From the NCBI RefSeq assembly GCF_963576615.1, contig NC_088711.1:6572001-6636000 (forward strand): a stretch of 64,000 nt of DNA, given 5' to 3'. The stretch comes from Watersipora subatra (Eukaryota; Bryozoa; Gymnolaemata; Cheilostomatida; Watersiporidae). The translations under genes were made by a program, and so were the position numbers. Position 1 is the first letter of the stretch; the number at the start of each line of letters is the position of its first letter. Below the pieces are notes generated by a model. It searched no databases, had not been told where the DNA came from, and was given only the letters and a program-made list of their open reading frames with translations. Positions 12,117 through 39,400 of the stretch are shown piece by piece.

Positions 12117-13400
12117 AGAAAAGTATGACTGCAATAAGTCTATCAGATTAAATATGGAGCTCTTAAAAAACACTACAGCTATAACATGATGAAAGTGTCA
12201 CTAGTTTTTTTCTATTTGTCGCTTTTTACAGTACACTTTATACTGATTGAATATATCACACAATTTGTATGCATAAAAATCAGAATGATTGAAAAAGACT
12301 ATGAATAATACTGTCACCTGCTAGCATAAAATGTAGAATATAAGATTGTAATTAGTATACAGTCACATCTATTCTTCAATATCGAGTTGAGAGATATAAC
12401 TTTATCTCATCTATATTTTATTTATATTATAAATTAATAATAAATTATAATAAGTGAAACTCGCTTTAAATCCTACGGGAAAAAATTATATTCCGCTGTT
12501 CAACCAGCTAGCTATTGGAAAAGTTTTATTATCATATATTTATTTATATTATAAACTGTATATGATTCAAGCAGGATTCACTCTCTTGTAAAAAATATAC
12601 TCTAGTAACAAACCAACATTAAAACTAAAGAGTGAGAGAACTGATGCAACAAGACGACTAAAGTAAATATTGTATTAATAAGTGAAACTCGCTTCAAGTC
12701 CTATGGAAAAAAATTATATTGCGATGTTCAACCAGCTAGCTATTGGTAAAGTTGTTGGCTCAATGAGTACATTTTATACTGAACAGAGTTGAAAAATTTA
12801 TACTGAACAGAATGAAAAATCTTTATCTAGCCTATCCAGTATACAGGAACCATCTGTAGATGTTTATGGATAAAATCTTAAAAACATAAGTCAAGAGTGG
12901 CAGAACTACATGTAGCAGTAAAACAGACTCAGCGTTTGAAATCTCTCATTTCTACCTTGCGAGCAAAAGATTTGACAAGCTGCGTGTGTCTATAGTTCTA
13001 TATGGAAGTAAACTTAGTAATAAATACACTTGCAACCAATTTATGTTCGCATCTGAGAAATGTTTCAAAACTGTGCAATTACAAATATCATGTAGTTATT
13101 CATACAAAGAATGTTTCAGGTATACTTATGTGACATAAAAATCTTTAAGCTTTAAAAAAGCTTCAAGCACGGAGTCTGAAAAGAGACTACGTTATGTATA
13201 AAAAATCTGAGCAGAATTGTTCATGAACATGCAGACATGATGTGATGCCTGTGCAAGACAGCACGGGTTTAAATAGGTATCGTATTAATATTATGCAAAG
13301 TGGGATGGGAAACGAAAACTGAGGTACAAAAATTGAAAAAAGGATCATCTCGTCGATAAGATATGCAGTTTAATGTGGCAACTCAAAGCCATTTTATAAA
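12117..13400. other. Upstream of ANKRD40-like gene; no gene seen
   Basis: The region contains a direct repeat pair (12453-12525 and 12676-12750) and otherwise AT-rich sequence. The promoter and 5' UTR of the ANKRD40-like gene should lie just above 12116, but no convincing TATA box or other core element could be picked out. Confidence 0.5.
12453..12750. repeat. Direct repeat pair, about 72 bp, 223 bp apart
   Basis: Both copies read AAGTGAAACTCGCTTCAA, then AAAAAATTATATT, then GTTCAACCAGCTAGCTATTGG with a few substitutions. Copies are at about 12453-12525 and 12676-12750. Confidence 0.7.
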
Positions 13401-15235: not shown

Positions 15236-17917
15236 GCTCACATCAGAAATGTACACAAGAAACTGCAATAAAGAATCATAAAAATTACAATAAACGCTCA
15301 TCACTGCCAATTCAAACAATGAAATTATGAATCGACCAGTCCACCTTATCAAGACTAGGGCTCAGTGCCTGGGCCAACCTACCTCAGTGCAAACAAACAG
15401 CAGGCGATATCACAGTATTTTTTATCAAAAACTACCAGAGAGCTCCAGAATAAAACCAGCTCAAAGAAACCAGCAAAACAAAAACCAGTCACACAGAGCA
15501 GCAGTGTGCGACAATTCCAAACAAGATAGGCTGAGCTAGCCTGTTTTAGTCTGAATAAAAATGCTAATTATGAATCTAGCTTATGGAAACCCGACCTAAA
15601 ATTGTTTACACTGGCGTTTATCTGAGGCACGTCTTTTTCTTATGTCCCTAGGTGGTTCAACGGGAATAAATCTACGAGATAATTATAAGGTAACCACATG
15701 GTAGTAACTCGCTAAAGATACCAGTATAGCTGACACCTTCCCACATTAAACATTTGGATACACCGATGTTCTGATACATGACTAGGTTAATACCTGTAGA
15801 TCTTTTATTTCAGAATAAAATAAGCTCGCTGTCAAAAATTTCACATATAAATTCTAATTGAAGATATTGGGAATATATTGCAATTTTAGAAAAAAATTCC
15901 GATAACGCAGAAGATATAATTACGGCAGGGACCAGTAGAGGAGAAAATGCTTTGCTAATTTAGGGCTTTTAAGCCCTAGCTCAACGGCGATGTTTGGGGG
16001 CGCAGAATGTAAGATGTGTGAAAGTGAGGAATTACTACTACAAACTAGCCTTCATATAGCTCAGATCGTAAATTAGCGGTTGTTCGTAGCGTGGGACGAT
16101 ACTCAGCCCAGCGGCTACTTGTCAATAGTCTGAGCTAATGCAATGATGTGATTTTTAAAAACCCAAGCTGTTTCATTAGGCCACAGACAATAGTAGTAAC
16201 CTTAGAAAGTTTACCAACGTTAGGGTAAGCAATGCACAATTAAAATCGTGGCGATTAAGTTTTTTAATAACTTTTTGCATATTTGTGCTATTAAACTGGC
16301 TGTAGCCATTTGAAGTTTTTACGGTTACAAAATACATGTACTTAGTATAACACAGTTCTGCAGCACGACTTACCTCTTCGTTAAATTCAAACCAACAGTT
16401 TAAAAAAAGTCTTTACAACTGTACATGTTTGAAATTTTTATGATTTATAATTGCACTCAAACAGTGAAAACAAACACTATCGTTTTTTGTGTGAGAGAGA
16501 ACAAAAGGAACAGAATACAAAATCAGTTCAGGTGGCTTTGCAACAAAGATTGCATCAAAAAAAAATTTCTTTATATCAAGGGACATCACAAAATTATTGT
16601 TTTTAAAATGACATTGAGTTAAATGATTAGAATGGCATAGATGCTTGTTTATTTATTTTTTGATTGCTTTATTGTATTCTTCATTTATTTTTGGGTAGTT
16701 TTCTTTATAATTTTATAGTGTTATACACCCATTTATCATTATATCAGTATTGAGATAATGCACTGTTACTTGCTTTTGAAACTATTGAAAGAAATTGGCA
16801 AAGGTTAGTTAGTATAGTAGTAGACGAAATCTTGAAATGTAAATCGATGCTTCCGTTACATTCACCACCAGTGTGCTTGAAAAATAACTACATTGACTTG
16901 CAAACTGCTAATTAGTTTTGATGTGAAAACAGAGATGGTCGAATAACGAGCTGCTAGAGCAATATTATGGAGTGAACACTGCAAAGGGAATGTTAAGTTT
17001 TGTTGAATTTTTCTTTCACCAAACTGTAAAAATCAGCACAATTGCCATGGCAGGATTGCCAATATGTACTCAGTATAACAGTCTAAATAGCAATCAAAAG
17101 TCTATTGAGCCACATTCATGTGCTTGAAGGTTTTCATAGTATTTGTGAAATCCGGTAATGAGGAGATTCTTCAAAACGTACATGCCATTGAATTGTGACA
17201 GGGTAGGAATATGCCACTAGTCAGCCTGTTTCATGATTTGTGCTATTTACAGCACGCTTGTTGTATGACATTCTAATAGTTTCTATAGTAAAATTAGTAA
17301 AATCTGTTTAGATCCGTTGCTATAGAACTATTAAATATTTATATTTTATTTAAACTTTGAAGCAGTTTACGATAATGTATTGTTGGCCAGAATTAATTCA
17401 AGCTAAATGTGTAGAGTTATGTTAATCTTACAGTATGTTAACAACAATGTTAATATACATTACATATATACAAGTGTTTAAAATTGTAGGTTTTGTGACA
17501 ACTCGTATTAATCACGCAACGGAAACACTTTCAAGAACTGAATGTATTGAAGATGTTCCATACAAACACTTTCACTGTACAGCCATTTGCTCAGTCAAAG
17601 CTAAAGACTGACAGAAATATGGATGCATTAGACTTGCTTAAAACTTCTAATTTAAACAGGTACATTGTAGAAACAACCAGTAGACACTTGTGTTTACATG
17701 TTTATATGACCTTTTAAACAAGAAGGACTTGCTTGGCACAACTAAAATGTAGTTGTGTCAAAAACTTAATAATTGGAGAAGTTTAAAAATATTTAAGTGA
17801 TATGACTATTTCTACATCCATACTTGTAAGAGCCTATGAGAAGCACCAAATAACTGAAAAGCAGTAGCAGTGTTCTTAGTTTCTTAAGATGCTAAGCTGG
17901 TGTAGAAATACGTAAGT

Positions 17918-18132
17918 TACTAGCTATGTAGGTTATTAGATATGTAGGTTACTAAACACGTAAGTTACTAAATACATAGGTTATTAGATACATAGGTTAC
18001 TAGATATGTAGGTTACTAGACACGTAAGTCACTAGATACATAGGATATTAGATACCGTAGGTTACTAAGTATGTAGGTTACTAGACACGTAAGTTACTAG
18101 ATACATAGGATATTAGATACGTAGGTTACTAG
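17918..18132. repeat. Minisatellite, 16-bp unit, about 13 copies
   Basis: The unit is TAGGTTACTAGATATG with TAAGTTACTAGACACG variants. It lies just upstream of the first recognised exon of the CCDC15-like gene. Confidence 0.8.
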
Positions 18133-18371
18133 CTATAATCATTATTTTGCTATGAGAGTTATCAACTACTGCACATGATCTATTTATGAGATTTTCTAAA
18201 TAAATTGTTGTAGTAGAATTTTTATGGCATGTGCCACTGTTTGTTTGGTACTTCTACATAACATATGGATTGTGTTTATTCTAACTATTTACAAAAGCTG
18301 GCTTTTTTTACAGAATTGCTTGCTATTTTTGCTTCCATATATCTAGCCGTCGCTGTTGTTCTCCCTGTAAG

Positions 18372-21300
18372 AATGGTGAAGTAGTCAGGGTACGCCCTGT
18401 CCTTTGCTCTAAGCAGCTTTCAGAAGCAGACACTACAACGCAAAGGCAACTGCAAGATGGGTTTGGTGTGGGCAGCTACCACCGCACGCCTGCTGGAGGT
18501 GCTTGGGTGGAACATAATTCTCAAGGAGACTGTGAGCAGGTTAGTGACTTTAATAGATTTATAATTTTTCTCTTTATTATCCTCCTATTATAGTTGCCTT
18601 CTCTTGCAGCTGTATGTTCTTGTCTACCTGTTCACTAGTGTCACTTGAGTTGGAGTAAGACTGTCATTGATAACCTACATTACTCATGTTTCTAAATATA
18701 TGCTCATGCAGACATCAATGTGTCTGCTAGCAGTCGCCTATAGACTTATATATATAATCTCATATAGACTTAGATAGACTCATCAGACTTATATATAAAT
18801 TCTCATATATAGAAAATACAAGTGGCCAACATTAAGAGACACATATATAGTACACGATATCCTTCTCCTAATTTCACTAATTAGGGCAAGCGCAAACTTA
18901 CCTGACTAACTCATTTGATTAAGGTGAACTCTGCTGTTCATCTCTCTGCTTAGACATGGTGAAAAGCTAACAGAAGTACACGTATATCAATTGACTGAGT
19001 GGGTGGCTAGCTGAGGTTTGAGGTACTAAATGAAGTCTGAAGTATTAGCTGAGGTATGAGGTACTAGCTGAGGTATGAGGTACTAGCTGAGGTGTGAGGT
19101 ACTAGCTGAGGTGTGAATTACTTGCTGAGGTATGAGAGGTACTAGCTGAGGTGTGAATTACTAGCTGAGGTGTGGGGTACTAGCTGAGGTCTGAGGTACT
19201 AGCTGAGGTATGAGGTACTAGCTGAGGTGTGAATTACTAGCTGAGGTGTGGGGTACTAGCTGAGGTGTGAGGTACTAGCTGAGGTGTGAGGTACTAGCTG
19301 AGGTATGAGGTACTAGCTGAGGTATGAGGTACTAGCTGAGGTGTGAATTACTAGTTGAGGTGTGGGGTACTAGCTGAGGTGTGAGGTACTAGCTGAGGTG
19401 TGAGGTACTAGCTGAGGTCTGAAGTACTAGCTGAGGTCTGAAGTATTAGCTGAGGTCTGAAGTACTAGCTGAGGTCTGAAGTACTAGCTGAGGTCTGAAG
19501 TACTAGCTGAGGTCTGAAGTACTAGCTGAGGTATGAAGTACTAGCTGAGGTGTGAAGTACTAGCTGAGGTGTGAGGAGGTACATAAGAACAGCCTGTTTG
19601 AGTAGATCTAGTGAGAGTAGTGAGTGTGGTAAATATCTTCATAGACAAACTAGTGCTGATATTAATTTTTTTGTTTTATTGATTCTTCTAGGTTTCCCAA
19701 TGTTTATTTCATTGTTGGTTGCAGTTGGCTTTTTTCATCATGTATAAGCGATAATACAGGTGGAAAACTGGGAGAGAGCTAGGCGGTACAATGAGGAGGT
19801 GGAGAGCTGCTCTGAAGAGAAGGCCTTTCGGCTGAAGGCATTTCAGAAGGAGGTGAAAATGCGAGTGCGGAATATAGAGAAAGAGAAGCAGAGCCTCTTG
19901 GTGGCCAGGAGTCAGAAAGATGTATGGGTTTACAGGATAGAGTGTCTTGTGAAACTAATTGAAATATGGTCTGATGAGACATAATTAATGTCTGTAGCTT
20001 GCGTTATCTTCAGTGAAAACAAGCAGTACAGCATTTTTATTCAGCCTATTTTATATTGAAGTAAATGGCAAGCTTTATTGGGCAGCCCCTTAAACCACCT
20101 GGAGTTGTGTGCTCATTAAATAAGATGGGTTGAATTATTGGTCACTTGCTATTGTTTACAAATCCATGCAATGTTTCTAGACTTCTTATTGGTTTGAAAG
20201 AGCACTTTCTTAAACCATAGGTTGAACTTGAGCTTATAAATTAACTTAGCTTCTGAAACTCAAAGGCTATTCAAGTCCCAATATGCTTTAAGATCGTTGT
20301 TTGGCTGAGGAGAGGAAGAAGCCACCAGATAATGTTTCTGGTGGTGTATGCAAGTGACATCAACAACAAAATATCAACGACTAAAATGGATGAAGATGAT
20401 TATTTCTATCTGATGCCAAGCTTGAGGCTGCAGCATCCATTGATTTATTTCTCAACAGCATCGCTGATTTGTCTATTAAATATGTCATATACGGTATGCC
20501 ATGACAACCACCAGCTATTAACAGCTATTGGAGAATGAAGTGCTCTAGTACTACAGCCATGTATGTTGAATATGACGGTTTGCAGCTCGAACTGGAAAGG
20601 AATGTGGCTCGAACGACAGCATACTTAGCCCAGGCCTCTATACCATATGCAAGCGAAGTGACTGTGCGCGGCAGGACTGATAGGATCATCAAAGACTCCA
20701 CATTCCAAGCAGTGGCAGGTATGGTATAGGCCCTTTTAACTGTTCAATTAGAGCTCAGAACTACACTTGTGGTTAACTGGCATAGGCTGAAGGTGTGTGC
20801 TTGGGTGACTACAGGACTGGCAGACGTGGATTTATTTTGAGATTGGGGATAAACATGAATTTATTGGAGAAAGTGATTACATAGATAGAGCCGAAAGATT
20901 ATCAAAATGTTATCATTAAACAATTCCTCATTTCATTTTCTTGCGTCTCAGTTTTCCCTGATATTTCTCAATGATCCGTTGAGATGCCTTCTTTATCTCT
21001 TCTCTTCCCAAAGTACTCTGGGATATTTTAGAAGCATCTTCTTCAAACACATCTGCAATATATCACTATGCTACTACAGACTTGTATGGCACATCTTTCT
21101 CTCTATTAATATTCTCACCTCTCTCTTCCCTCGCCTCTTTTTTCCCTTCACCTCTCTTTTCCACTCACTTCTCTTTTCCCTTCACCTCTCTTTTTCCTTC
21201 GCCTTTCTTTTCCCTTCACCTCTCTTTTCCCTTCACCTTTTTTTTCCCTTTACCCCTCTTTGCCCTTCACCCCTCTTTGCCCTTCACCCCTCTTTGCCCT

Positions 21301-24300
21301 TCACCCCTCTTTTCCCTTCACCCCTCTTTTCCCTTCACCCCTCCCTTCCACTCACTTCTCTCTTCCACTCACCTCTCTCTCTTCCACTCACCTCTCTCTT
21401 CCACTCACCTCTCTCTTCCACTCACCTCTCTCTTCCACTCACCTCTCTCTTCCACTCACCTCTCTTTTCTACTCACCTCTCTCTTCTACTCACCTCTCTC
21501 TTCTACTCACCTCTCTCTTCCACTCACCTCTCTCTTCTACTCACCTCTCTCTTCCACTCACCTCTCTCTTCCACTCACTTCTCTCTTCCACTCACCTTTC
21601 TCTTCTACTCACCTCTTTCTTCCACTCACCTCTCTTCCACTCACCTCTCTCTTCTACTCACCTCTCTCTTCCACTCACTTCTCTATTCCACTCACCTCTC
21701 TTTTCCACTCACCTCTCTCTTCGACTCACCTCTCTCTTCCACTCACCTCTCTCTTCTACTCACCTCTCTCTTCTACTCACCTCTCTCTTCCACTCACCTC
21801 TCCCTTCCACTCACTTCTCTCTTCCACTCACCTTTCTCTTCTACTCACCTCTTTCTTCCACTCACCTCTCTTCCACTCACCTCTCTCTTCTACTCACCTC
21901 TCTCTTCCACTCACTTCTCTATTCCACTCACCTTTCTTTTCCACTCACCTCTCTCTTCGACTCACCTCTCTTTTCCACTCACCTCTCCCTTCCGCTCATC
22001 TCTCTCTTCCACTCACTTCTCTCTTCCACTCACTTCTCTCTTCCACTCACTTCTCTCTTCCACTCACTTCTCTCTTCCACTCACCTCTCTTTTCTACTCA
22101 CCTCTCTCTTCCACTCACTTCTCTTTTTGACTCACCCCTCTCTTCCACCCCTCCTTTCACCTCTTCTTCTTTCACCACCCCTCCTTTCACCACTGCTCTC
22201 ACCATGCGCTAGTGGTTTTCTCTCTATCTATTCTACTTTCTGTTTGCTTTAGGTCCAGTTCTTGATATCCCTCTCTCATGATCATTTCTTTCTCTTTTCC
22301 CATCAACCCCTTCCAACCCTCTCTCATAGCCTTTTCTCCACTATCTCTCTCATGACCATTTCTTTCTCTCTTCTCATCAACCTTTTCCAACCCTATCTCA
22401 TAGCCTTTTCTCCACTATCTCTCTCATGACCATTTCTTTCTCTTTTCCCATCAACCTCTTCCAACCCTCTCTCATAGCCTTTTCTCCACTATCTCTCTCA
22501 TGATCCTTTATTTTTCTTTTCCCATCAACCTCTTCCAACCTTCTCTCATCGCCTTTTCTCCACTATCTTTTTCATGATCCTTTCTCTCTTCCCATCAACC
22601 CTTTCCAACCCTCTCTCACAGCCTTTTCTCCACTATCTCTCTCATGACCATTTCTTTCTCTCTTCCCATCAACCCCTTCCAACCCTCTCTCATAGCCTTT
22701 TCTCCACTATCTCTCTCATGATCCTTTCTTTCTCTCTTCCCATCAACCCCTTCCAACTCTCTCTCATAGCCTTTGCTCCACTATCTCTCTCATGACCATT
22801 TTTTTCTCTCTTCCCATCAACCCCTTCCAACCCTCTCTCATAGCCTTTTCTCCACTATCCCTCTCATGACCATTTCTTTCTCTCTTCCCATCAACCCCTT
22901 CCAACCCTCTCTCACAGCCGTCTCCCTCGCCCTCATTCACTGCCTTGTTGCTACTTCCTTTCTACTCTCTCTCTCTTTACACATTTTCCTTTCACTAGCC
23001 ATAGATTATTTATCTTTTTCTAGGAAGTACAAAACTTTTTACTGACCGGCTCCTTCCTCTTCATCCCATTTCACATCAACTCTTGTGTTGGCCCTTGGAA
23101 GTGTATCTTCCATGAAGTCCAGGAACTATATGTCAGACATGCAAAGCATATGAATTATTATGTTTTGGAAGTTTACACAAGCCGCATGGCTATGTGCTCT
23201 TCATTCCTCATCTCTCACTTTTGTACATTTAATCGCAGTAAACTGTCTTTAAATATTTTATAAGGCAAGACTTCTGAACATTCAAGGTTGTTGTGTCACT
23301 TAATGAACACCATAAATCATTGTAAGAATTGTCAAATATGTACACTGAATGAATTACAATTTTGAATTTATTCAATATTTGTCATCAAATCTGTAAGCTC
23401 TGGTTGTAAATTTTAGACAAGAGAGCTCTCATATTATATTGTTAATTGGTCAAGTGATATTGGGGTTAAACAGAAGGGTGCACTAGTTCAACCTAGACAT
23501 GACAACCAAGTTACTTGCCAATTTCAAAACATAAAAGCGGTTGAACAAATAGTTTCTTATACGTTTTTTCACGTCTGCGAGTGCAGTACATAAATTTCTC
23601 CTAGGACTTGAATGGTTTCAAATCAAATAATATATAGTGGGGCAATATGTAGTGGGGCAATATGTAGTGGGACAATATGTAGTGGGGCATTATGTAGTGG
23701 GCAATATGTAGTGGGGCAATATGTAGTTGGACAATATGTAGTGGGGCAATATGTAGTGGCACAATATGCAATGGGGCAATATGTAGTTGGACAATATGTA
23801 GTGGGGCAATATGTAGTGGCACAATATGCAGTGGGGCAATATGTAGTTGGACAATATGTAGTGGGACAATATGTAGTGGGGCAATATGTAGTGGGCAATA
23901 TGTAGTTGGACAATATGCAGTGGGGCAATATGTGGTGGGGCAATTTTTTTGGCTCTTTGATGCTTCTAAGTGTATCATAACACTGCCAGTTACATTTACC
24001 ACACTATCAGACTACTGAGATGCCAACCCATCTCACCGGGCGACAACAAATTTTCAAGATATCTTTTTGCAATGCATCATTTGCCACTGTTTAAATATTT
24101 AATATACTTGCGATTTGGGAACGTTTCTAACACTCAGATTGTAAAAGTTTCCTTTGGCATTTTCAAAAAGCGTAGAATGCTTGTGACGCGTTATTAGTTT
24201 GTGGTTACCTCTGGACTCTCCAAAAACTCTATCACTTTCCCATGCGGCTCTATCTCCAGGCTCACTTCTTCAAGTTTCTCCATAATAATCGTGATGTCAT

Positions 24301-27300
24301 CAGCGAGTCGTCCAACCATATGCTGTCTTGCAGTCTGCAAAAAAGGCTAGATAGCGAATTGTTACTTTTTAGAATATCGGAATATCGGAATATCGTGCTA
24401 TGAATATGCTTTAAAATTAGCCAAAGCTCAGTTAATCACTCGGTCATGTGGTGCATTAAGACCGACACCATACAGTTAATATGATCACGTACCGGGTCTA
24501 TCTTGTATTTCTGCAGTATCATGAAGAAATTGTTGGAGCCCATGTTTACATCATTCAGCAATTTCTCTTTCTGTTCTATGTCTGTTTTACATTCTTTCAA
24601 TTTCAGTTTTAACTCTTCCACCGCACTGCTTTCTTCCTCCATTCTTCTTACTCCCCTAAGAAAGTTTAGAGCACACATTATAGTCATTTTCTCATGTTAT
24701 TGAAAGAACAAAACTCCTTGCACAACAAGTACGTCTTTAATATACAAGCACTGTGTCGTCATTTTCACGTTCATTACAGTGTGATCGTCTCTCGTAAATT
24801 AATACAATAAAGATTAGCATGAGTAGTCTAGCCTTCAAGTCTCAACAAATTTGAATTTCAGCAATAATCACGATCGTTCTGGAAGGTTCTTCAAGCTATT
24901 TTCTGCAGATATTATTTGTTACTAGAAATAAGGCGATCAGGAGGAAACATTTGACCATACTCAGATATTTTCTTTTCTCCGTAATATTTAAGATGCTGAT
25001 ACTCTCTCTGAACGCCTTTACGTTCAATTTCAAGAACCGCTTTTTGACCTTCAAGGCTCTCTATCTGGAGCCGCAGTGCTCTCTGTATCTCATGCTGTTG
25101 CCTTATAGCAGGCAAGATCTCCTGAAATCATACTAAGTATTATATATGTGTAAGTATATATATGGCCTTGCGTATGCTGCTTAAATCTAGTTAGGTAGTG
25201 TATTTACTAGTTGTGTAACTCACCTCCTTGCTGGCAACCTTGCAGGCATTTTTTAAGAAGGAGACTGTGCTTTCATAATCGACTCTCTTCTTTCTTTGCT
25301 TTTCATACTTCTGCTGAGTAGCATGCGCGTCCTCTATCAGAACCAATAGTCATACGAGTAGTGTACAAGTAGAAAGTACCAATAGTCATACGAGTAGTGT
25401 ACAAGTAGAAAGTACCAATAGTCATACGAGTAGTGTACAAGTAGAAAGTACCAATAGTCATACGAGTAGTGTACAAGTAGAAAGTACCAATAGTCATACG
25501 AGTAGTGTACAAGTAGAAAGTACCAATAGTCATACGAGTAGTGTACAAGTAGAAAGTACCAATAGTCATACGAGTAGTGTACAAGAAGAAAGTACCAATA
25601 GCCGTACGAGTAGTGTACAAGTAGAAAGTACCATTAGTCATACGAGTAGTGTACAAGTAGAAAGTACCAATAGCCATATGAGTAGTGTACAAGTAGAAAG
25701 TACCAATAGTCATATGAGTAGTGTACAAGTAGAAAGTACCAATAGCCATACGAGTAGTGTACGAGTAGAAAGTACCAATAGTCATATGAGTAGTGTACAA
25801 GTAGAAAGTACCAATAGTCATACGAGTAGTGTACAAGTAGAAGTAGTTCATGCAATTGGAGGTCATCACTTATAATGCTTTTCATATTTAATTGTTCAGT
25901 ACCCTTTTACATAATCCAGGACCTAGCTTGGCAAAACAGAACATGTGATGTTTTATGAGGACTAGATGAATGCCCAGCGTTACCCGGGTAATAAAAGTCT
26001 TTGCACAGAACACTTATTTTCATTTAACATATACCAACATTTATCATTCTAACTTTCCAACTTCAAATCATGAAAAAAGTGTTTTGTGCAGTTAAAATAA
26101 ATTGAGAGAAAAAATAAAACAACTGTATAGGTTTTTAAGCTTTGTCAAACGACTGCAACTTTTAAACTTCATATCAAGAAGAAAATATTTTGTGCAAGTC
26201 AAATAAATTAAGAAACAAAATAAAACAAATATAAAAGTGTTTAAATGTGAATGTAAAATAATTAGCAAGTAATAGCTAAATTAAGTCTGTTTTGCTACGA
26301 TTACAATAAAAGCTGATTTATTAATGATACAATTAATACGAACTGAGAAAATAAAATAAAAATTCTGAATATGTTGAATTAATAATAACAATTCGTGCAT
26401 AGAAGTGTGTGTGTATGAAAAAAGGTTACTGTTCCAGCAAAAGTTATTCATCAAAACTTTGAATACGACGATACTTGTACCTTTCAACACTGGTACAGAT
26501 GTAAAAAAGGGATATCAGGCTTTCTTTGTCTGATCGAACGGAGAGAGAATGTAGAGGCTATTTCTACTCGAGATAATACAATTGTCCGAGTGAAAAGAAT
26601 TGACCTTGACCGCCATTTAGCAATTGAACCTTACGAAAAACCGGAAATAGAAGTTCACGAAAATGCGAAAAAGCAGTGTGTTTCATAGCGTTAATAGAAT
26701 TCATTAAGTTTTAATACGTCATTTAGCGCGTGCTATCGAGAAAAGAGTATATAAATTATAAAGTAAGAGCGATGAATTGTAAGACCTTTTGTCGTCTCGT
26801 GGTTAGGGAATTGGATTACAATCCTTCAGTCGTGATCATCGTGAGCGCAAATCCAGCAAATCGCGAAATTTCAAGTCCAACATTTTAATAGCTATATACA
26901 TGTAGCTATAGACAAACATTGAAAAATATATATATAAATAATAAAAAATTCGCTTTATGACCATACCAGCTTCTTTGTTAATAATTTGTTGCATGGGATT
27001 GTGAGCTCCTGTTCGGCCTCCCTTTGGCTTATCTGTGCCCTTCACCTCTTTATGGGACTTGTCGACTTTTTTTCTTGTATTTCCAAGCATCTTGTCTCTG
27101 TTCTTCTTGCTCTCAAAATATTCCTCATGGAACCTTTTGGTTCCCTGCAACCAAGTTGTCCAGCTTGAATTGACAAATACTGTACACCACACACTGACTG
27201 AGGATTGCTATTTCAATGTCATTTTGTGGTTATACATTCCAAGCTCCTATATCGATGTGCAAGTAGAGACTGTTGGAAAATTTTTGTCTATCTTTCAGCT

Positions 27301-30300
27301 CTTAAAAATGCTGTATCATCATTACATCTGAGAGCAGTTATTGGTAATGCAAAGCGTCTAGCAAGCATTATATAGTCTACATGCATGTATGGTTGTACGT
27401 ACATATGTATATATATATATAAATATATATATACACGTGACTGGACTCATGATGTACCTGAATTGATCTTTCAACCATGTTTTGTGACTTGTGGTTGACT
27501 GCAACAGCATCACTAAACTCCTTCTGGTGGTCCACAAGCTCGACTTCTGTATAAATCAGACTAAACAGTATCATGATTGAGTCACCGGGCAAAAATTCAT
27601 ACGCCTAATACGTGTACATTCCTAATACGTGTACATTCTTTCAGGCTCAGTTCTACTATGTTGAGTCTGCAAAACTGAGCCTTGAGAAGTCAAGTCCATT
27701 AAATACCAAACTATATTTTACTAGATGAATGCCCGCCATTACACAAGTAATAAGAAAGTTTTTGCACAAAAAATTTGTTTTAAATTGGCTGAACATCTTT
27801 ATTTAATAAATTTGAGTAACTTAAGCTAGTCTAAATCTTTAATATAAAGAGCCGTGTCCGTCCCTTTGAAGCCTGCGTTAAGAAAAATTGCGTCATGATC
27901 TCTCACGCAATCATGATTTTCAAGCGTCCTAGATGAAGCGTGATATTTTAACCAATCAGCATTAAAGATTGGCAGTTGTAACAACTATGATGTGCACAAC
28001 TATTCTACATTATCGTCTGTTCATTACACTCTGCAGATGCGCGTAGGGTAATGAACAGTACGCCTGTTTGCAGAACTGGAAGTTCCGAGTTCAATTCCAG
28101 TTCAAAGCATATTGCTCGCTCCTATAACTTAATCCCTATAACTGGACACACAAACAACATACAGACAAGCACCGAGATTTATGTATAGATTATTGTAAAA
28201 TCTTTTGAGTATGATATTTATATTAACTTTTTTTTCAACATAGATAGGCATGGTCAACCATGCAGTTCAATTTCAAGTTTTGCAGCAGCAACAAGGTTTT
28301 TAAGTAAAATTCACCAAAACAAAGGCTCATAGATTATCCTCTTAGGAGTGTTTACCTTTTATAGCTAACAAAGCTTCTAGTGGTTTCTGGATTAATCTAC
28401 TTATTAGACAGACACCTCATAGCAAACAATTTTAATTTATCGCTTCGATAATTTCAAAATATTGTGGACATCCTTTGTTTACCAGACCTAACTGATCAAG
28501 TTTCCAAGGATAACTCTGTGTGTCCTCTTTGAGCTGAGCCAAGATCTTCTGGTACTGCTCATTGATTATCTTAGCACTGCTCAGCTTCATCTTTAGCTTC
28601 TCTAACCTTAAAGACAGCGTCACTCTTTCACCTTTTTGTTTTAGTTATAATTTCAGATATAACCTGATATCTTAGTCTTAACTTGAGATATAACCTGATA
28701 TCTTAGTCTTAACTTGAGATATAACCTGATATCTTAGTCTTAACTTGAGATATAACTTGATGTTTATGTCAACATAACTTGGGATACAATTGATGTTTTT
28801 CTTTTAACGTGTGATGTGACTTGATGTCTTAGTTATCATAAATTGGGCTATAACTTGATGTCTATGTCTTAACTTGCTATATAACTTGATATTTTTGTAG
28901 TCTTGAGATATAACTTAATTTTTTAGTATACTTTAATCTTAATTTAAGGTGTAACTTGATGTCTTAGTTGCTATAATTTGATATATGCCATTTTGTCTCA
29001 ATCTTAACCTGGGCTATTGTTTGCTGTATTAGTTTTAACATGAAATGTAACCCACTGTTTAACACTACCCACTGATATAACACGATTTCTTAGTCTTAAC
29101 ATGAGATGTAACTTTATATTTTAGTGTCTCAACTTTAAATGTGGAAGTATTACACATTAGTCAACTCGTTACAAACATTTACTCGCTAGCGCTTTGCCTA
29201 GTTGCTAAAATTATTATCGCTAGGTTTGTATATAGAACAATTCTTAATAGCACTTTTCTTGATAGCATTTTTCACTCTTAGATGCATATATGCTATTCGT
29301 AAAATTTTTAATAGAACGAGTAAAATATTTATTTGAACGTATTTTAACCTACAAAGTTATATTTAGTTCAGCATATCACTACTCATCTCAATGAAGAGTG
29401 AGATCACTAAATTCATATGTAACTGACTAAATTCATCTCCATACCTCTGCCTGGTTTCACCTATTAAGGTGTAATTTTTTATGGATTACCTATTCTCCAA
29501 TACTCTGATCTGTTGCGCTTGCGGTGAACTAATATCATCAAATGTATTTCGTTGTGTTTTATCCAATAGCTCCAACTCTTCTGTCAGTTTCTGAACTTGT
29601 CTCAATTTATCTTCCTTCTCACTTACCTACAAGATTACGTTCTGTACAGTACCAACATTCTCTTTGCAGCACCAAGGTATTTAACTATAGTTAGCGTTGA
29701 AATTTTTGTTTCTATGTAAATAATTATCTCCTATACTACTTTATGGATCACACACACATTGTGAAGTCATTCTAAAACTTTAACTCGCTGTAATAATGAA
29801 ACCTCATTTTTTATTTCTTAGTTCTTTAGACACAGACATGTAGTTCATTATACAACCGATAAGTATATACAACTTATAAGTATAAGTTTGGCTTTACCTT
29901 CAGATTATACTTCTTTATCGCTTCGCAGACTTTGTTGTCTTGTATTTGAATGGCTTCAGCCATCGACTTCCTGCAGACAAACAGCTTTTCCACTGGCCTC
30001 TTCTTTTCATAGGCATATGCTATGTTATGCGAGTCAGATGTGGTTACATGGGTGCTCAGGCGCAGCTTGTTCTTTCGTCTCTCCAACAGCAAAGTAGAGA
30101 AATTCACTCTCTTCTCTTGCTCACTTTTATCAAAAGTTGCTTTGTGCTCATATTCTGTCCAAAAACAAAAAATTCGCATACATCATCTGTAGTCCGAGTT
30201 TTTCTTTTTTGTTAAATTGAATCAACTCAAATGCCAAAATTCTTTAATTTAAAAGCAAAAAAGTGGCTTGAGAGGTTGGAGCATAATTGGTAACCTTCGC

Positions 30301-33300
30301 AAAGCAAAATGAGGCTGTCATCAGCATCATTTTGATTAGTCACATTAGATTACTAAATTTTAATGTCAATTTAATGGGTTCTTGATAGAGCAGTAATTTG
30401 TTGAATTGATGAACAAATTAAATAGCGTGCAACATAATTGCCACTGAAACCAAGCCTAAAACTCGACCATCTTTCATCTCCATTTTAAAAAATATTTCTA
30501 GTAATTTAATCAAACCACGCATTTTCTGTTTGACTGTTTATGCCGGGCTGTAATTGGCTAAGTCATCTTTTCAAGCGTTCAGGGAGATGCTTGTCAGTCA
30601 ATAATTACAGTAATAATGCCATGCGAGAGACACTACTAAAAATCAAAAGATTATTTCAGAACAATCATACCTGCCAATTGGATTTTAGATTTTAGTTCAT
30701 CAAGCATTAATTCGTTGGAGATTCGATCAGGTGCCAATTGGTCAGCACGACCTTTTAAAGGTCGTGGCATTTTGAAGAAAAGCTAAAAGATAAAACTTTG
30801 CACAAATCTTGAAATTCTATCAAGTTGATGACTTTATAAACAACATTGCGCTATGATGCATGTTTGGTATGCTGACAGAGCGTCATGGCGTTGTGCTACG
30901 CTTTTAGAATGGTTGTTGATTCCCTACATGAGATAAATTTTTGTTAGGCGCTGTATGAAGAGAGTACTGAACATGGAAACATGGCTATTGAAATAGTCAC
31001 CGAGTTTCAGAAACTGAAGCATGTTTCCAGTATGATACAATATATGCTTCTCTGTGGTTACCTTCAATAATCTTTTCAAGTTGTATAGTATTTTTATTAA
31101 AACTAAAAGTTGATTATCAATTGATCGAGGGTGTTTTTAGATGCTGAGAATAAAAATCCATCCACTGACGCTCTGGCAAAGATGGCTAAATCAAATACTA
31201 TAGTTGAGCAAGAGAGGTCACTGAAAAGAAAAGCGAGGCTCAATCTTGGTTCAAAGCAGCTGACAAACTTAGTTGGAAAAGAACTTCCTGGAGGGTGCTG
31301 GAGAGAGACACCCTTGGTGGAGGTCTTCTAGTTTCTTCTGATCATTTCTTCTCTATTCTGCGTGTGATTATGTTTGGCAAATTTTAACTTTTTCATATAC
31401 CAGACAACGACATAGAATGAATTAATTGTAGTTTCATGGATATGATGACGAGAAACCTGATAACAGCGATCAACAAAACTTACAAGGTTTGAAATAGTGC
31501 TTAAGATGTTCCTCCCTCTTGCTGTATGTATTCTGCTTGTACATGTAACATGAGAAGTGAGACGGTGTGCTTCATACTTTATAACAAGCGAGTTGAAACT
31601 TCTGGTTGTTGTATTAAAGGTCTGCAAAAGTTCTATGTTATTCTGCAGTGCCAGCCTACACTGGTGTGCCAGGTGCTTCCAATATACTCGCAGAAGAACT
31701 TTCACAAAAACAAACTGAAAGGAAGGGTTAGTTTTTCCTTTTTGTTTCTTGACTTTCTATCCCATCTCATGCGCATAGTAAACTGTGATTGTACATACCT
31801 GTGTACATGCACACCAACCTGTGTGTAAATGCATTCATACGCATCCATGTTATATGTCCATCTGCTATACATGGCATCACTTCACACGAAGGACATATGC
31901 GTACATTAAAATCTATGTGCTGTCTTAAAATCTTAAAAGGCTTAGAATCGTAAGTCCTGATTCTGAATATTCGGGTCTGCTGACTATGTCATATCTGTAC
32001 AGAATTACAAAGTTTGGGGCTGACCAACCATTCCTTTTTGATCTGTCATCTGTCTTTTTTTAAGAGTTATTCGTCCCACATAATATTAATGGCTAAAGTG
32101 TTTATTTGTGTAGCAAACTGCCATATTTATAAAAGTAAAACTTTAGTTGCATTCTACTAGGCAATGTATAATAATACATAGACTACAATAATAATACATG
32201 TACATATAATGAAAATCTTCTAGTGAATATCTAGTCTAGATATGCGTTTCTTTGAAACAGAGAAGGTGCCCAAGAAGAATGCCCTGCAACGTTCACTAGC
32301 TTACACTATCTCAGGACAAGAAGAGGAGGAAATACGTAAGCAGGAAGTTAAGCAACGGTCTCTGCTGCGCCGTCTCTACATGGACATCGAGAGAGAACAG
32401 GTGAAAGAATACAGAAAGATGAAGGAACACATGGATAGAATAGCTCAGTGAGTTGGTATGATTGAAGGTTGTGCCAGTAAGTTTTATTGTGGACATAACA
32501 GATGTTCATACTCTATGTAAAGATTTCTGTGTGGGTTTTATGTCCATTTTCTGCCTAAATGCCTTATGGAGGTAAGACTCTTTTTACAGCTGATGTATCT
32601 TTTTACAGCTTTTATATGCTTGTGTGTCATCAGAAATTAATCAACTCAAAAAGCAAGATTTTGTAGCACTAGTTATAGAAATGTGTGTCGCCTGTCATCT
32701 TCAGTTTTAGCCTTTAATCTTCAAATACCTAACACACAATAAATTGGTTATACATGTTATTTTTGAAATGGTATAAAGTATGTGTTTGTTGGCCTGTCAA
32801 TATTGTAAAGATTTTTTAAATGAATTTTACAAACACGAACCTTTTTTTGTGCTTTATTGAATGAGATTTCATGCTTAGATGCTAAACTAGACGTTAAATG
32901 GCGAAACAAAGTAAAAAGTTTGCCATGAATATTTCCTTGTTTCAACATTTTCATCCTGTTCAAAATGAAAAAATTAGAACCACTGATGAAATATCAAATA
33001 CTTACAAATGAGTGAGAAAATTGTTTATAAGCTAGCGTAGTCTATTAGCTATGTAAACTCCATTGTCAAATTGGTTTTATTTTCTAGAATAAAACAAGCG
33101 AAAGAGGAGGAAAGAAAAAGGCAGGAACTGGAAGCTAGTCGTGCGTCTCTCCCAACTTTCCCAGGAGGATGTGTTGCAGATGCTAATGCTAGGAAAGCCG
33201 TAGAATTGGAACGAATTCAAAAGCAGCAGACAGAAACCAACAGGTATGCTGAAACTAGAAAAATATAAACGACTTGCTGTTGTTTCACAGCATTCTTAAA

Positions 33301-35710
33301 TGTTCAAAGAATCAACATGTACTTAATGGTTTCATGACTGTTCAAAGTGTAGTGAAGGCCCTTCACTGAATGGAATCTTGCATACCTTCAGCCAAGGTGT
33401 ACAGCCATTGATCCATACGATGTAATTATAAGTTTATCTTATAAGTGGAATCGTTTCAGCATCATCATTATGGCATTTTTTTGTTTATGTCTTTACCAAT
33501 GTTTGTCCTCATGACTACAATAAAATAGCACAATCCTCCTCGCAATGTTTTTTCTACATGCAGCTTCTGTGCGGAAGCACCAATCTATGATTATAATCGG
33601 GGCATGCTGGTAATCTTTGCTTCAGATACATAAAGGCATTGCGATCTTTGCTAAAAGAAAAAATAGAGCGACTCGGCATCGAGATGCCTCCATTGTGTTC
33701 ATGCGGCAATGACATTTGGGATGCTCACCCTGATGTTTGTGCCAACAACTGTCAGTTCTACAAGAATCCAAAGGGTGAGTTTTGCACATCTTAACATCAC
33801 TAACAATTTTTATGGTTACATATTTTTTGTTTGGTTGTGAGGCAAACTTTACTAATAAAACAATGACTTATTTACCAAATAGTGTGTGAACCAGAACATG
33901 CGTGTGTCCTAGACACTTCGATGAATGGCACGTTTCGTTGTAAGCATTTTCAGAACAGAGCTGTAAGCAGCAATTCATTTACACACCACTCATCATATGG
34001 GACTCGATAGATTTAATGTCTAAAATTACTTTGTCAACTATTTTAATTTGTCGCTATTTTAATCTCCATATGGGGCTCATTGTTACAACCTAAATAATTG
34101 ATAGAACCTAAGTCTTAAAATGTCTCATTAACACATTTTCAAATAATCGTTGGAAAATCTAATAATAAGCACTTATTCTAAAACCACAACGAACAAAACA
34201 AATTGTAAAATAAGAAACTAGTGTAAATTTTGGCTATGGCAGATAGCACATTTCCTCAGATAGAGAAAAATATCGTCTAGCACAGGGGTCAGCAACCCGC
34301 GGCTCCGGAGCCTCTTTCATCCCTTCACTGCGTCTCTCTGACTTTAGATTTTTTTCTCTTTTTTTCTTTACCATATATATGCTGATAATTCATAAAAATA
34401 TAGAAGTTTTATCACTAGATTTTGTAATATAACTTAAAAAATTGTAATTATGGTGATAAATCAAACATTGTCGCTTGTTGCGCGTCATCAGCAACCCGCA
34501 GCTCCGGAGCCTCTTTCATCCCCTCACTGCGACTCTCTGACTTTAGATTTTTTTTCTCTTTTTCTTTACCATATATATTCTGATAATTCATAAAAATAGA
34601 AGTTTTATCACTAGATTTTGTAATACAATTTAACAAATTGTATTATGGTGATAAATCAAACATTGTCGCTTGTTACGCGTCATTATTTATGCACCAATAA
34701 AACTGCCAAAATTACACCAGCCGGCACGACACTTCTTGATTTTTTTACCCCAGGTAGGCAAACTATGGCAAATACTAAGGAAAGAAAAGTGACAGAGGAA
34801 AGTAGAACATTTAATATTACATGGGCTGATTCATTTGTTTTCACTGCTGATGAGACCAGTTCACCAGTTTGCTTAATATGTAATGAGAAATTTGTATACA
34901 TAGTCAAATGTCGCAAGACACTTTCAGAATAAACATGCAGTCTTTGCTCAAAAATATCCAGAGGGAGATGAGAGAAAAAGGCTATTTCGGAACTGATGCC
35001 CAAGACTAATTTGAGTGCATTCGAATGGCATTTGCTGCAGCTAGAATTTAAATTTGGCGTTATGTAAGGAAGGAATGAATTAAACATGAAGTTGCAATTT
35101 TTATTGAAAGTAACTTTATTAAACAACGTAGTATTTTCACGTTACGATCAAGTTATTATTAGCTATTTTATTGTTTTTTGCAAGTGTAATTTTTTTCTCA
35201 GCAGTTAAATCATTATACATGCCACACCTTTTCGTTTTATGTTGTAAACATGGCATAAAAGCTAAACAAAAACGTTACATGTAGTATTGATATATTTTTT
35301 AATTTAAAATAGCAAAGGGCTATTTTGTGTTTGTTTCAAAGTTTGTGGCTCCCACTGCGTTCTTTCCTGCGAAAAACAGGTCCAAATGGCTCTTTGAGTA
35401 AAGGTTGCAGGCCCCTGGTCTAACACTAAGACACAATGTACAGCTGTCCAGTACTGTATATTAATTAGTAAACACCAGTCACAATCATGCAGGTAAATGA
35501 GGTAAATCATTGAGGTAAATCTCAACATTTCCCCTTTCTAATCCTACGTTGTCAATTCTTAATTTCCTTTGTAGCGTGCTACTATGATAACTTAAGTATA
35601 CCATGTTTGTGAAACACTTCAATGGATTCTACATAATAGGGATATCTTTCGTTTTAGGATATGAAAGAGCTGTCCAGTCACTTCTTGCTTCCTGCGATGT
35701 TCTTGACTGA
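18372..35710 (+). CDS. CCDC15-like coiled-coil protein (10 exons seen)
   Basis: Plus-strand exons join in frame: 18372-18539, 19760-19921, 20586-20718, 31141-31322, 31432-31486, 31649-31726, 32240-32447, 33088-33243, 33626-33774 and 35658-35710 (TGA at 35708). Together they give about 447 residues. N-terminal motifs are GGAWVEHNSQG and LKAFQKEVKMRV, typical of CCDC15 as I recall it. The middle is charged coiled coil (LLRRLYMDIEREQVKEYRKM). The C-terminus is the strongest signal, with PPLCSCGNDIWDAHPDVCA, then NNCQFYKNPKG, then YERAVQSLLASCDVLD; it is Cys-rich and highly characteristic. CCDC15 is associated with centrioles and cilia in vertebrates. Intron 3 (20719-31140, 10.4 kb) contains a whole antisense gene. 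The true start codon is upstream and not found; the acceptor at 18371 is tentative. Confidence 0.75.
19008..19578. repeat. Minisatellite, 19-bp unit, about 30 copies
   Basis: The unit is GAGGTATGAGGTACTAGCT with GTGTGAATTACT and TCTGAAGTACT variants. It lies in intron 1 of the CCDC15-like gene (18540-19759), about 180 bp before exon 2. Confidence 0.95.
21100..22195. repeat. Pyrimidine-rich minisatellite, 17-bp unit, about 60 copies
   Basis: The unit is ACCTCTCTCTTCCACTC. Three overlapping open frames of 330-407 codons here have a 17-residue period (LFHSPLSSTHLSLPLTS) and are repeat artefacts. The plus strand is almost free of G and has few A, so the CCDC15-like pre-mRNA would carry a C/U-rich tract over 1 kb long in intron 3. 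Confidence 0.95.
22255..22925. repeat. Minisatellite, 74-bp unit, about 9 copies
   Basis: The phrase CATAGCCTTTTCTCCACTAT recurs at 74-bp steps (for example 22325, 22399, 22473), with CATGACCATTTCTTTCTCTC and CATCAACCCCTTCCAACCCT. It is directly next to the 17-bp array and shares its pyrimidine bias. Confidence 0.95.
23636..23945. repeat. Minisatellite, 15-bp unit, about 20 copies
   Basis: The unit is GGGGCAATATGTAGT, with GGACAATATG and GGCACAATATGCA variants. Since 15 is a multiple of three it gives QYVVG-type frames on the plus strand and ILPHY-type frames on the minus; neither is a gene. It is about 250 bp beyond the stop codon of the ODAD-like gene, in the position of its 3' flank. Confidence 0.9.
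24194..30770 (-). CDS. Outer-dynein-arm-docking-type coiled-coil protein (ODAD3/CCDC183 class)
   Basis: Ten minus-strand exons join in frame: 30770-30671, 30154-29898, 29626-29490, 28606-28488, 27546-27458, 27144-26967, 25333-25224, 25121-24961, 24655-24493 and 24334-24194. They total 1455 nt, 484 residues, from MPRPLKGRADQLAPD to FLESPEVTTN. The protein is nearly all coiled coil. Segments such as VLENRLEKLKMKLSSAK, NEQYQKILAQLKEDTQSYP and AYEKKRPVEKLFVCRKS resemble, from memory, the outer dynein arm docking complex proteins. Those anchor dynein arms on ciliary doublet microtubules. The exact orthologue (ODAD3, CCDC183 or CCDC63) is not decided. If the weak donor at 24960 is not used, exon 8 reads on to a stop at 24912, giving a shorter end. 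The gene is entirely inside intron 3 of the CCDC15-like gene, on the opposite strand. Confidence 0.7.
25338..25846. repeat. Minisatellite, 36-bp unit, 14 copies, abutting an exon
   Basis: The unit is AGTACCAATAGTCATACGAG followed by TAGTGTACAAGTAGAA. Because 36 is a multiple of three, open frames of up to 188 codons with a 12-residue period (TRMTIGTFYLYT) run through it on the minus strand and through neighbouring exon sequence. The last repeat runs to within about 5 bp of the acceptor of ODAD-like exon 7 (25333), so the repeat supplies the intron's 3' end. Confidence 0.95.
25962..26240 (-). mobile_element. Helitron-like 3' terminus, copy D (reverse)
   Basis: Read on the minus strand it ends with TATTACCCGGGTAACGCTGG, GCATTCAT and CTAG, then T. 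The body contains CATGA..GAAG-type phrases seen in copies A and B. It is in intron 6 of the ODAD-like gene. Confidence 0.6.
26791..26853 (+). repeat. tRNA-like segment (SINE head)
   Basis: GTCGTCTCGTGGTTAGGGAA resembles the 5' half of a tRNA with an A-box-like TCGTGGTTAGGG, and GAGCGCAAATCC resembles a degraded B box. There is no clean acceptor stem, so it is read as a SINE head or tRNA pseudogene rather than a tRNA gene. It lies next to ODAD-like exon 6. Confidence 0.4.
27721..27800 (-). mobile_element. Helitron-like 3' terminus, copy E (reverse)
   Basis: On the minus strand it ends ATTACTTGTGTAATGGCGGG, CATTCAT, CTAG then T, a more decayed version of the same terminus. It is in intron 4 of the ODAD-like gene. 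Confidence 0.45.
28034..28105 (+). repeat. tRNA-like segment (SINE head)
   Basis: GAGTTCAATTCC at 28087-28098 is a good B-box match, preceded by CGCCTGTTTGCAGAACTGGA like an anticodon arm. The A-box side is poor, and there is no tRNA fold end to end. It probably derives from a tRNA-headed SINE. Confidence 0.4.
28648..29125. repeat. Degenerating tandem repeat, 31-bp unit
   Basis: The unit CTTAACTTGAGATATAACCT GATATCTTAGT is nearly perfect for about four copies from 28648 and then diverges into lengthening, mutated copies up to about 29125. It lies in intron 3 of the ODAD-like gene, immediately next to exon 4. Confidence 0.85.
34283..35417 (+). mobile_element. hAT-family DNA transposon, 1135 bp, with 8-bp target duplication
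   Basis: The ends are CAGGGGTCAGCAACC at 34283 and, inverted, CAGGGGCCTGCAACC at 35417. The flanking 8-mers GTCTAGCA (34275-34282) and GTCTAACA (35418-35425) differ by one base, the expected hAT target duplication. The left 199 bp is duplicated in tandem (34291 and 34490). The interior carries the N-terminal part of a transposase. It lies in the last intron of the CCDC15-like gene (33775-35657). Confidence 0.85.
34765..35005 (+). pseudogene. hAT transposase N-terminal fragment (frameshifted)
   Basis: An ATG at 34765 opens a frame with MANTKERKVTEESRTFN, then ITWADSFVF and PVCLICNEKF, a zinc-finger-like N-terminus typical of the hAT/Charlie transposases that gave rise to GTF2IRD2-like genes. 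The frame stops at 34930. A +1 shift resumes with HFQNKHAVFAQKYPEGDERK up to a TGA near 35000. The catalytic and dimerisation regions are absent, so it is dead. Confidence 0.75.
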
Positions 35711-36463: not shown

Positions 36464-39400
36464 CTAACGACGAGAACCCTGATTATTTTTGTTCAAATTG
36501 TTATAGCGTCCCTGGTCTGATCGACCCTCATCATCCCGAGGCCCACCAAATCCTCTGCCCCTTGTATGTCGTTGGCCATCACGCCTCCCACCATGTCGAG
36601 AGTTGCTGTGGGGTCTATTCTCACTCCTTGGTTTTTTCTCTTCGATATTCAAACGATGGTTCTTGTATTCCAGTGACTGCAATATTTCAGTGTGTTACTA
36701 TTACTAGTTATAACCTGTCCATTTGTTAACCTTTTCACAATGCATGTATATACAGCCAAATTTTAATATATGAAGTTGAGAGCTAGCCACACACATTAGT
36801 AAAATGCATCGTCGATACTGTAGTGTAGTGATATAATGTAGTTATACACACCAACACTACTAAATGTGCTGTGTTGACCGATGAGAATTGGTCTTGGCCG
36901 TTTGATTACCATGAATGGAATGTCAAGCATTTTTATTACCTAATATGGATCATAAGCAATTTGATAGCAATGTTTGAGCAGCTAATTGCATTTTTAAATT
37001 TTTGCTAAAAATACGAAGAAAACCGCCAAGCATAACAATATTTCAAGATCATTACACGGATACAAGCTGTACACGTTATTACAGGCTGTTTGCATGAAGA
37101 CCAGTTGTCATATCGTTTAATAGCAAAATTATAAATGAAATCTGCTTTTGCTGAAAATTAATACAGTGCACCCTCGAGATACGATGTTGATCCGTCTCAA
37201 GGCTGGCATCGTATGGCGAAAAACCGTAATCGTAAAAACTGTAATCTCAATTCCATTTTACAGTGCACCCCCGAGATACGATTACCCTGATATACTATTT
37301 TTTCACCTTACGAAGTCGAACATCGTGAGATCTTCACCTCGATATACAAATTTTATTTCACCATACGATTTTGAGAAAAGTTTCGCTCGAGTTGAAATTT
37401 GGCAGTCGGTGTGCTCATAACCCACGTCGAAATAAAAAAAGACACCGAAATATAAATGCTGAAAACATTTTCAGAACGTTTAGAAGAGACACGATGATCG
37501 ATTCGTTTGTAGCGTTATAATATATTTTACTATAAACCTTTAAGCCAGCATACGTATATAACTACAAGTATCTACATTTAATTCGTTAGCTATGAAATCT
37601 GAGACCAATACAAACGTTACAAAACGAAGGAAAAATGATTTCTATGTCAACAAAGTTGGATGTCGTAAATAAGAAGAAGGGACCCGTATTATCAACATTG
37701 TCAAGGAATATGATCGCAACCAATCAGCATTTGCAATTATTATTAAAACAAGAACTCCATTAAAGCAAGCACAAGGAGCTTACGACTGAAGATTTGAAGG
37801 ACTTAGAAGGCCATGCATGCGATCAGTATTCAAAAGGAAAAACCATTTAGTAAGGGCGAGGAAGCAGAAGATACAGAAAATCCCACACTGGCAGAAATAT
37901 TTCAAGTGTTTAATTCACCGATGTGGACTGGTACATTAAAACAATGCATGTATAATATATATTATTAATCTCTTGTGTGGCATGTTTTTCATATTTTATT
38001 CATTTTATTTGTTTCCTTCGGATTTTATGTTTTCTTTTCTTGTTTAACCATGTCTTTGCAGGTGGGCTTGTTATCTCCTACGTGAATACACTTCATCGTA
38101 TGTATGTAACTCATATAACTAGCTACTCAAGATAGTTGACACATTCACATTACTTTCTGAAACTTGTTAAAGCCTTGTCCTCTAGGGTATAAATACGTAA
38201 AAACTTCGTACGTACGGTTACATTGATTCTTGTGCACAAGAAATTTCATACAAGAAAACTACTGTAGGACTTCTCTGGATCCTTCTACAAGCGTTAGCTA
38301 GCTAGCAGTTTTCTGCATTGCACCAGCATTTTTTTTTCTTTTAAACCAGAAGAAAAATTGGACAGGACTAGACAACTTTCTTTAGCCTGCTAAAAATTCC
38401 ATTTCATTACGTATTAAATTAATCTTCAAGTGTACAGCAACATAATTAGCATTGATACGTTTTTGTCTCCTCTCTGCTTTATTCGCTACATGTACCAGCT
38501 TAAGTCACGTTACTCCAAAGGTATGTACGTCCTGTATAATAGTAAATAAAATTTCATTTTTCTTTTCGGTAACCATTAATGGTCAGGTGTGTGAGAGGCC
38601 GCTTTCGATAACTGCATCGCTCGGCCTCACTTATTGAATTCTAGTAGAAAAATGTTTCAACCAGACACGCTAAATTTTAAAATGAAAGTGAAGACGGAAA
38701 CTTATGAAGGATAAAATTTTGTGATAAAAAGTTGAAATTCATTAAAATTGTTCAAAATACATAATGAAACTTAGTTTTAAGGGTGAGTTTGGCAAGCTAA
38801 ACTTATTTGAAGTGAATTCAAAGTTTATGTTATGAGTACCTTTTGAAGGTAAGAACTTTTTACCGTACGATCTGCATTCGGTACACAGATTACAATTTTA
38901 CAGTATTGCAGATTATAATCACTAGGTGCACAAAATACAATGCAGCTACTGTATGTAACTTTAGTTACTAAAGTTAACATACTATTTTGTTACTAATTTT
39001 CAATATGCACAGCATTTTTATAAAATTTTGAACGATTTTTACCTTTTCTTTCATTGTATAATTACAAAGGTTTCTATACCCGGACATACGATTTTTTCGC
39101 CATACGATGGCAGCCTTGGAAAAGATCAACATCGTATCTCGAGGGTGCACTGTATATTCATTGGATCAACTAATTCAGTCTTTGCTGATAAGACAAACAT
39201 GATGTTCATTTCGACCTGACGCATCGAAAACTCTACTGACACATCGCCAACATGTTAGCTACAAAAGCAACCTGTTCCATCAGGGTGTGTACAGCCAGGG
39301 ATTTAATCTGTTCCGATATTTGCTTCGTAGGTTAAAACTGTCATACATTAGACAGTTTTGATTAGTTTTAAATATTGTTATAAGAATACATAATATTTCA

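Follow-up and report, generated by a model that had tools for sequence, protein, structure and literature searches.

A docking-protein-like gene predicted antisense within an intron of a CCDC15-like gene in the bryozoan Watersipora subatra

Introduction

Does a stretch of the Watersipora subatra genome carry one complete, many-exon gene antisense within a single intron of another, and would such a placement mean anything for the way the two genes are expressed? The original prediction answered yes to the first part, with a minus-strand gene of the ODAD type lying in one intron of a plus-strand CCDC15-like gene. It also suggested that the nesting may couple the expression of the two genes or create antisense interference between them. 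Both gene models were rebuilt here from the raw sequence of the window (the whole 64-kb stretch of DNA that was analysed) and spliced by script. Nested intronic genes are frequent in animals according to a survey of 1058 eukaryote genomes, in which the ctenophore Hormiphora californensis has 2,357 of them (PMC8527503), and in Drosophila 2mit is reported as nested in tim2 (PMC3786989).

Results and discussion

The host gene

The plus-strand model consists of the following features.

17553..17659, plus strand: candidate first coding exon with its ATG at 17553, preceded by an in-frame stop at 17496
18314..18539, plus strand: exon with the GGAWVE motif, acceptor TTTTTTTACAG, donor GAGCAG/GTTAGT, reading frame open
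19760..19921, plus strand: exon, in frame, GT/AG
20586..20718, plus strand: exon at the upstream edge of the host intron, ending in phase 1, donor GCAG/GTATGG
20719..31140, plus strand: host intron of 10,422 bp, set by its flanking exons, holding the nested gene
31141..31322, plus strand: exon entered in phase 1, acceptor GTGTTTTTAG/
31432..31486, plus strand: exon of the spliced model
31649..31726, plus strand: exon of the spliced model
32240..32447, plus strand: exon with the MDIEREQVKE motif, matching the C part of a human CCDC15 sequence not drawn from a database
33088..33243, plus strand: exon of the spliced model
33626..33774, plus strand: exon of the spliced model with the Cys-rich motif PPLCSCG...CANNCQFYKNP
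35658..35710, plus strand: last coding exon of the spliced model, with the stop

Ten exons had been proposed for this gene, and they do read in frame: beginning at 18372, the spliced frame is open over 447 residues up to its stop at 35710, with GT/AG at 9 of 9 junctions, and the codon phases agree at the predicted phase-1 junction between 20718 and 31141. The part that did not hold is the first exon, placed at 18372-18539, which begins without an ATG, has none in frame ahead of 18372 within the exon, and for which 18314 is the better acceptor. Further upstream, the segment 17553-17659 has an open frame and a donor (AAACAG/GTACAT) in phase 2, the phase of the acceptor at 18314. Joining the two keeps the frame and yields a model of 11 coding exons and 502 residues. 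The upstream segment is without homology support, and we put forward the ATG at 17553, together with the acceptor at 18314, as a candidate 5' end of the gene.

The CCDC15-like label was assessed with a human CCDC15 sequence that was not drawn from a database and was split into an N and a C part. The host model matched the C part at 124.5 bits, the reversed C part being absent among the matches listed, while the N part scored 17.8 bits and its reversed copy 4.7. With this sequence as reference, we regard the C part match as convincing and the N part match as suggestive. In the same reference sequence, the likeness to human CCDC15 takes in a GAWVE-like motif near the N terminus, in collinear position, and the MDIEREQVKE motif, as well as the Cys-rich C-terminal motif with the coiled coil upstream of it, by which we recognise this family. 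With its 502 residues (11-exon model), the host protein is shorter than human CCDC15 and is missing the long, repeat-rich middle of the human protein. Pfam returned no family for the host protein at E up to 1, and the two PDB matches obtained, at E 0.22 and 0.72, were both judged to be chance. The CCDC15 label thus goes without database confirmation; the comparison with this reference sequence nevertheless favors the family that had been proposed, and the host is probably CCDC15-like.

The same exons could also be divided between two plus-strand genes. The 5' gene would then end after 20718 and the 3' gene start near 31141, perhaps from a two-way promoter shared with the nested gene, whose ATG lies at 30770. 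The host frame read past the 20718 donor meets a TAG at 20727-20729, so that the 5' exons might form a short transcript of their own, the exon at 31141 contains an internal Met that might serve as a start, and the resemblance of the N part to CCDC15 is weak in the reference sequence. However, the 31141 exon hardly resembles a first coding exon, since an in-frame stop lies upstream of it at 31122 with no ATG between them. Moreover, the phases on the two sides of the junction match, for which the chance expectation is 1/3, and both parts are collinear with one human protein, CCDC15 (in the reference sequence). We consider a division into two genes unlikely and infer that the 20718-31141 junction is used in splicing, which would make the exons on both sides parts of one CCDC15-like gene.

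The nested gene

The minus-strand model lies between these two host exons and consists of the following features.

30671..30770, minus strand: exon 1, ATG at 30770
29898..30154, minus strand: exon 2, in frame, GT/AG
29490..29626, minus strand: exon 3, in frame, GT/AG
28488..28606, minus strand: exon 4, in frame, GT/AG
27458..27546, minus strand: exon 5, in frame, GT/AG
26967..27144, minus strand: exon 6, in frame, GT/AG
25224..25333, minus strand: exon 7, in frame, GT/AG
24961..25121, minus strand: exon 8, in frame, GT/AG
24493..24655, minus strand: exon 9, in frame, GT/AG
24209..24334, minus strand: exon 10, donor GAG/GTAACC at 24209
23047..23125, minus strand: exon 11, 79 bp, added here, in the right phase on both sides
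20928..21052, minus strand: exon 12 with the stop, added here, similar to the ODAD3 C-terminus
20865 and 20836, minus strand: two AATAAA signals past the nested stop, within the host intron

Ten nested exons had been predicted, running from 30770 to 24194. They splice in frame, with GT/AG at their junctions, and this part of the prediction stands; the end does not, because 24194 is merely the end of a stop codon that is reached by reading through the donor at 24209. The complete model has 12 coding exons and encodes 547 residues.

When pyrimidine and donor filters were applied in a first scan for exon 11, 2 candidates remained. With those filters off, a looser scan for open, in-phase segments of 30-259 bp gave 144 candidates and ranked the same exon first. 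Compared alone with the C-terminus of human ODAD3, exon 11 ranks 1 of 144 with a score of 39, whereas no other listed candidate exceeds 22; placed in context, it scores 70 against 66 for the second candidate and a median of 48 for the 144. Its margin over the runner-up thus appears large when the exon is taken alone and small in context. Exon 12 ranks first among the 169 open reading frames of at least 30 aa in the intron, scoring 46 against the ODAD3 C-terminus, with 33 for the next.

Could the gene truly end at 24194, exons 11 and 12 being chance finds? The read-through frame does carry a stop there, isoforms that stop at this point are possible, and the slim in-context lead of exon 11 would fit such an ending. 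Against it stand the score of exon 11 alone and that of exon 12 among the intron frames, as well as a match to human ODAD3 that improves by more than 4 orders of magnitude when both exons are included. We judge an end at 24194 to be extremely unlikely and retain the 12-exon model. The misplacement of a gene end through splice-donor read-through matters for the annotation of such loci.

Searches of the PDB place the nested protein among docking proteins. The 10-exon version retrieved 5 sequences at E up to 0.1, namely ODAD3 in 7rro (1.4e-10), 9cpc (2.4e-9) and 8j07 (1.4e-8), docking complex 1 of 7moq (1.5e-9), and distal DC1 of 9e78 (0.051). With the 12-exon version, the search of 177,635 distinct sequences gave 4 matches at E up to 10, all of them docking proteins: the ODAD3 matches strengthened to 7.2e-13 (8j07), 1.1e-12 (7rro) and 2.1e-11 (9cpc), whereas, with exons 11 and 12 added, docking complex 1 matched slightly less well (1.5e-9 before, 6.8e-9 after) and distal DC1 was lost. 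Residues 21-543 of the 12-exon protein align with residues 69-591 (of 595) of the 8j07 ODAD3, reaching its C terminus. The tables name the molecule only; we take the 8j07 ODAD3 to be human and the 7moq docking complex 1 to be from Tetrahymena. The reversed 12-exon protein, one letter short, gave no PDB match at E up to 10, and, since this reversed copy matches nothing, the matches cannot be put down to coiled-coil composition alone. Pfam contained no family for the 10-exon protein at E up to 1, and a hit of the 12-exon protein to Collectrin (E 2.2) was judged to be chance.

The search thus found the likeness to ODAD3 or DC1 over the length of the protein by which we define the ODA docking protein family, and the ODAD-type label of the original prediction is upheld at the level of the family. 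The subfamily is a different matter. Human ODAD3 (CCDC151) resembles the nested protein over nearly its whole length, C terminus included, but the score of 51.4 bits is, in our judgment, low for an orthologue, and a human CCDC183 sequence not drawn from a database scores 52.5 bits in an overall alignment that includes the C-terminal motif. Reversed and shuffled versions of this CCDC183 sequence were absent among the matches listed, and no chain named ODAD1 occurred among the 4 PDB matches of the 12-exon protein. Since about 51 bits is low for an orthologue and CCDC183 scores the same, we leave the subfamily as ODAD3/CCDC183-like; the nested protein would be a divergent member of this group, both subfamilies scoring alike. 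Mouse spermatids without CCDC183 are reported to retain their inner and outer dynein arms (PMC10629680).

Arrangement of the two genes

A nested intronic gene has all of its coding exons inside one intron of its host, and this is the arrangement found: the 12 exons, from 30770 to 20928, all lie within 20719-31140, in keeping with the predicted nesting in one intron. The coding span is larger than had been proposed and takes up 9,843 of the 10,422 intron bases (94%). At one end, the nested stop falls some 210 bases short of 20718, where the host exon ends. At the other, roughly 370 bases separate the nested ATG from the host exon at 31141, and the nested promoter or 5' UTR may therefore reach into that exon, so that mature transcripts might overlap near 31141 through the nested 5' UTR. 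No coding exon of one model overlaps a coding exon of the other; the two sets lie apart and the poly(A) signals are intronic, which is not the layout of an antisense pair with overlapping exons.

Open spliced frames, strands, containment of the coding exons and the family-level similarity of the nested protein can be read directly from the DNA. The locus is very probably an ordinary nested intronic pair, in which an antisense docking-type gene sits within an intron of a CCDC15-like gene. The two genes would most likely use separate promoters and separate poly(A) sites. The primary transcript of the host would span the nested gene and then drop it with the intron, while the nested gene would be transcribed from the opposite strand and end short of the host exon, the AATAAA at 20865 or 20836 terminating its message within the host intron.

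Since nested antisense genes are common in animals, we regard the pair as a well-formed but ordinary case. Like other animal nested intronic genes, it consists of a complete protein-coding gene within one intron, here in antisense orientation. It differs from them in that the nested gene is intron rich and nearly fills the host intron, and in that both genes are related to cilia or centrioles by family. Among the literature matches listed, there was no prior description of a CCDC15-like/ODAD-like pair. If transcripts confirm the models, the locus would offer a clean example of antisense nesting of a many-exon, cilium-type gene within a centriole-type gene. It would then be useful for asking if functionally related genes that are nested are also expressed together, and how old the nesting is.

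The proposed coupling or antisense interference

The idea that the nesting couples the two genes, by shared cilium-specific control or by antisense interference between their transcripts, draws on what is reported of related proteins and of other nested pairs. Human CCDC15 is described as a centriole inner-scaffold protein that localises to the centriole lumen (PMC11564547), mouse CCDC183 and ODAD3 as functioning in flagella or cilia (PMC10629680), and, for some nested human genes, interference of nested transcription with the host gene has been reported at the level of transcription (PMC3192792). The separation of the coding exons and the intronic position of the poly(A) signals speak against antisense interference between the transcripts. 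For shared RFX control, we scanned with an X-box consensus. Sites with at least 10 of 12 positions, on both strands, number 2 in 30500-31600, 3 in 16500-18600 and 96 in the 64-kb window, so that the 5 near the two starts, in 3.2 kb, compare with about 4.8 expected by length. Around both 30770 and 17553, the 3 kb on either side contain no site with at least 11 of 12. In a one-strand scan, the window contains 50 sites at the lower threshold, against 34-54 in ten mononucleotide shuffles, and 8 at the higher one, against 0-6, an excess that is window-wide. G+C and CpG content revealed no island in 30001-32250.

The coupled expression or antisense interference proposed earlier thus found no support, the X-box-like sites being at background level, and we consider it improbable. 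Although interference between host and nested genes at the level of transcription is possible, we infer that functional coupling is absent from this ordinary nested pair. The cilium link common to both genes is notable, but a single pair cannot show more than coincidence.

Tandem repeats and a transposon in the introns

The final intron of the nested gene contains the most unusual feature that we observed at the locus.

21114..22148: 17-bp tandem array, 61 copies

This array holds 35 exact copies of AGGTGAGT on the minus strand, out of 36 on the minus strand of the whole window, with 1 on the plus strand. We take AGGTGAGT to be the 5' splice site consensus. On the plus (host) strand, the array is 89% pyrimidine and free of AG. 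It is tempting to propose that the array aids the processing of both genes in a strand-specific manner: the 35 minus-strand 5' splice sites might recruit U1 and so prevent the use of premature poly(A) sites, and the pyrimidine tract of the plus strand might attract PTB-like proteins that maintain the region as intron. We rate this as very improbable, and the repeat unit by itself may account for both properties.

Further tandem arrays occur in the introns of the host and nested genes, at 19007-19576 (period 19), 22271-22919 (period 74), 23629-23944 (period 15) and 25342-25842 (period 36). In the last host intron, 34283-35417 is likely a transposon, with ends CAGGGGTCAGCAACC and GGTTGCAGGCCCCTG and flanks GTCTAGCA and GTCTAACA that are alike at 7 of 8 positions; we presume it to be of the hAT type.

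Rest of the window

Downstream of the CCDC15-like gene and tail to tail with it, 36464-47746 on the minus strand is likely one gene, with an NTF2-domain exon at 47480-47746, an RRM-like exon below the cut-off at 40271-40516, and an RGG-like open reading frame at 36464-36694 (minus strand) for which Pfam returned no family. This gene is probably G3BP. Upstream of the host, a reverse transcriptase fragment at 13946-14296, presumably LINE-like, matches RVT_1 at E 3.5e-6 (27.3 bits, with a cut-off of 29.6). An open frame at 11943-12197 on the minus strand contains MDAAQEDLREAAACGDSNKVEELL and gave no Pfam family; it resembles an ankyrin-repeat protein. On the plus strand, the open frame at 50802-51263 has a weak match, below the cut-off, to zf-RVT (E 0.0053), the zinc-binding region of reverse transcriptases. 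Finally, 56753-58945 on the minus strand is an open frame of 730 residues with C2H2 zinc fingers.
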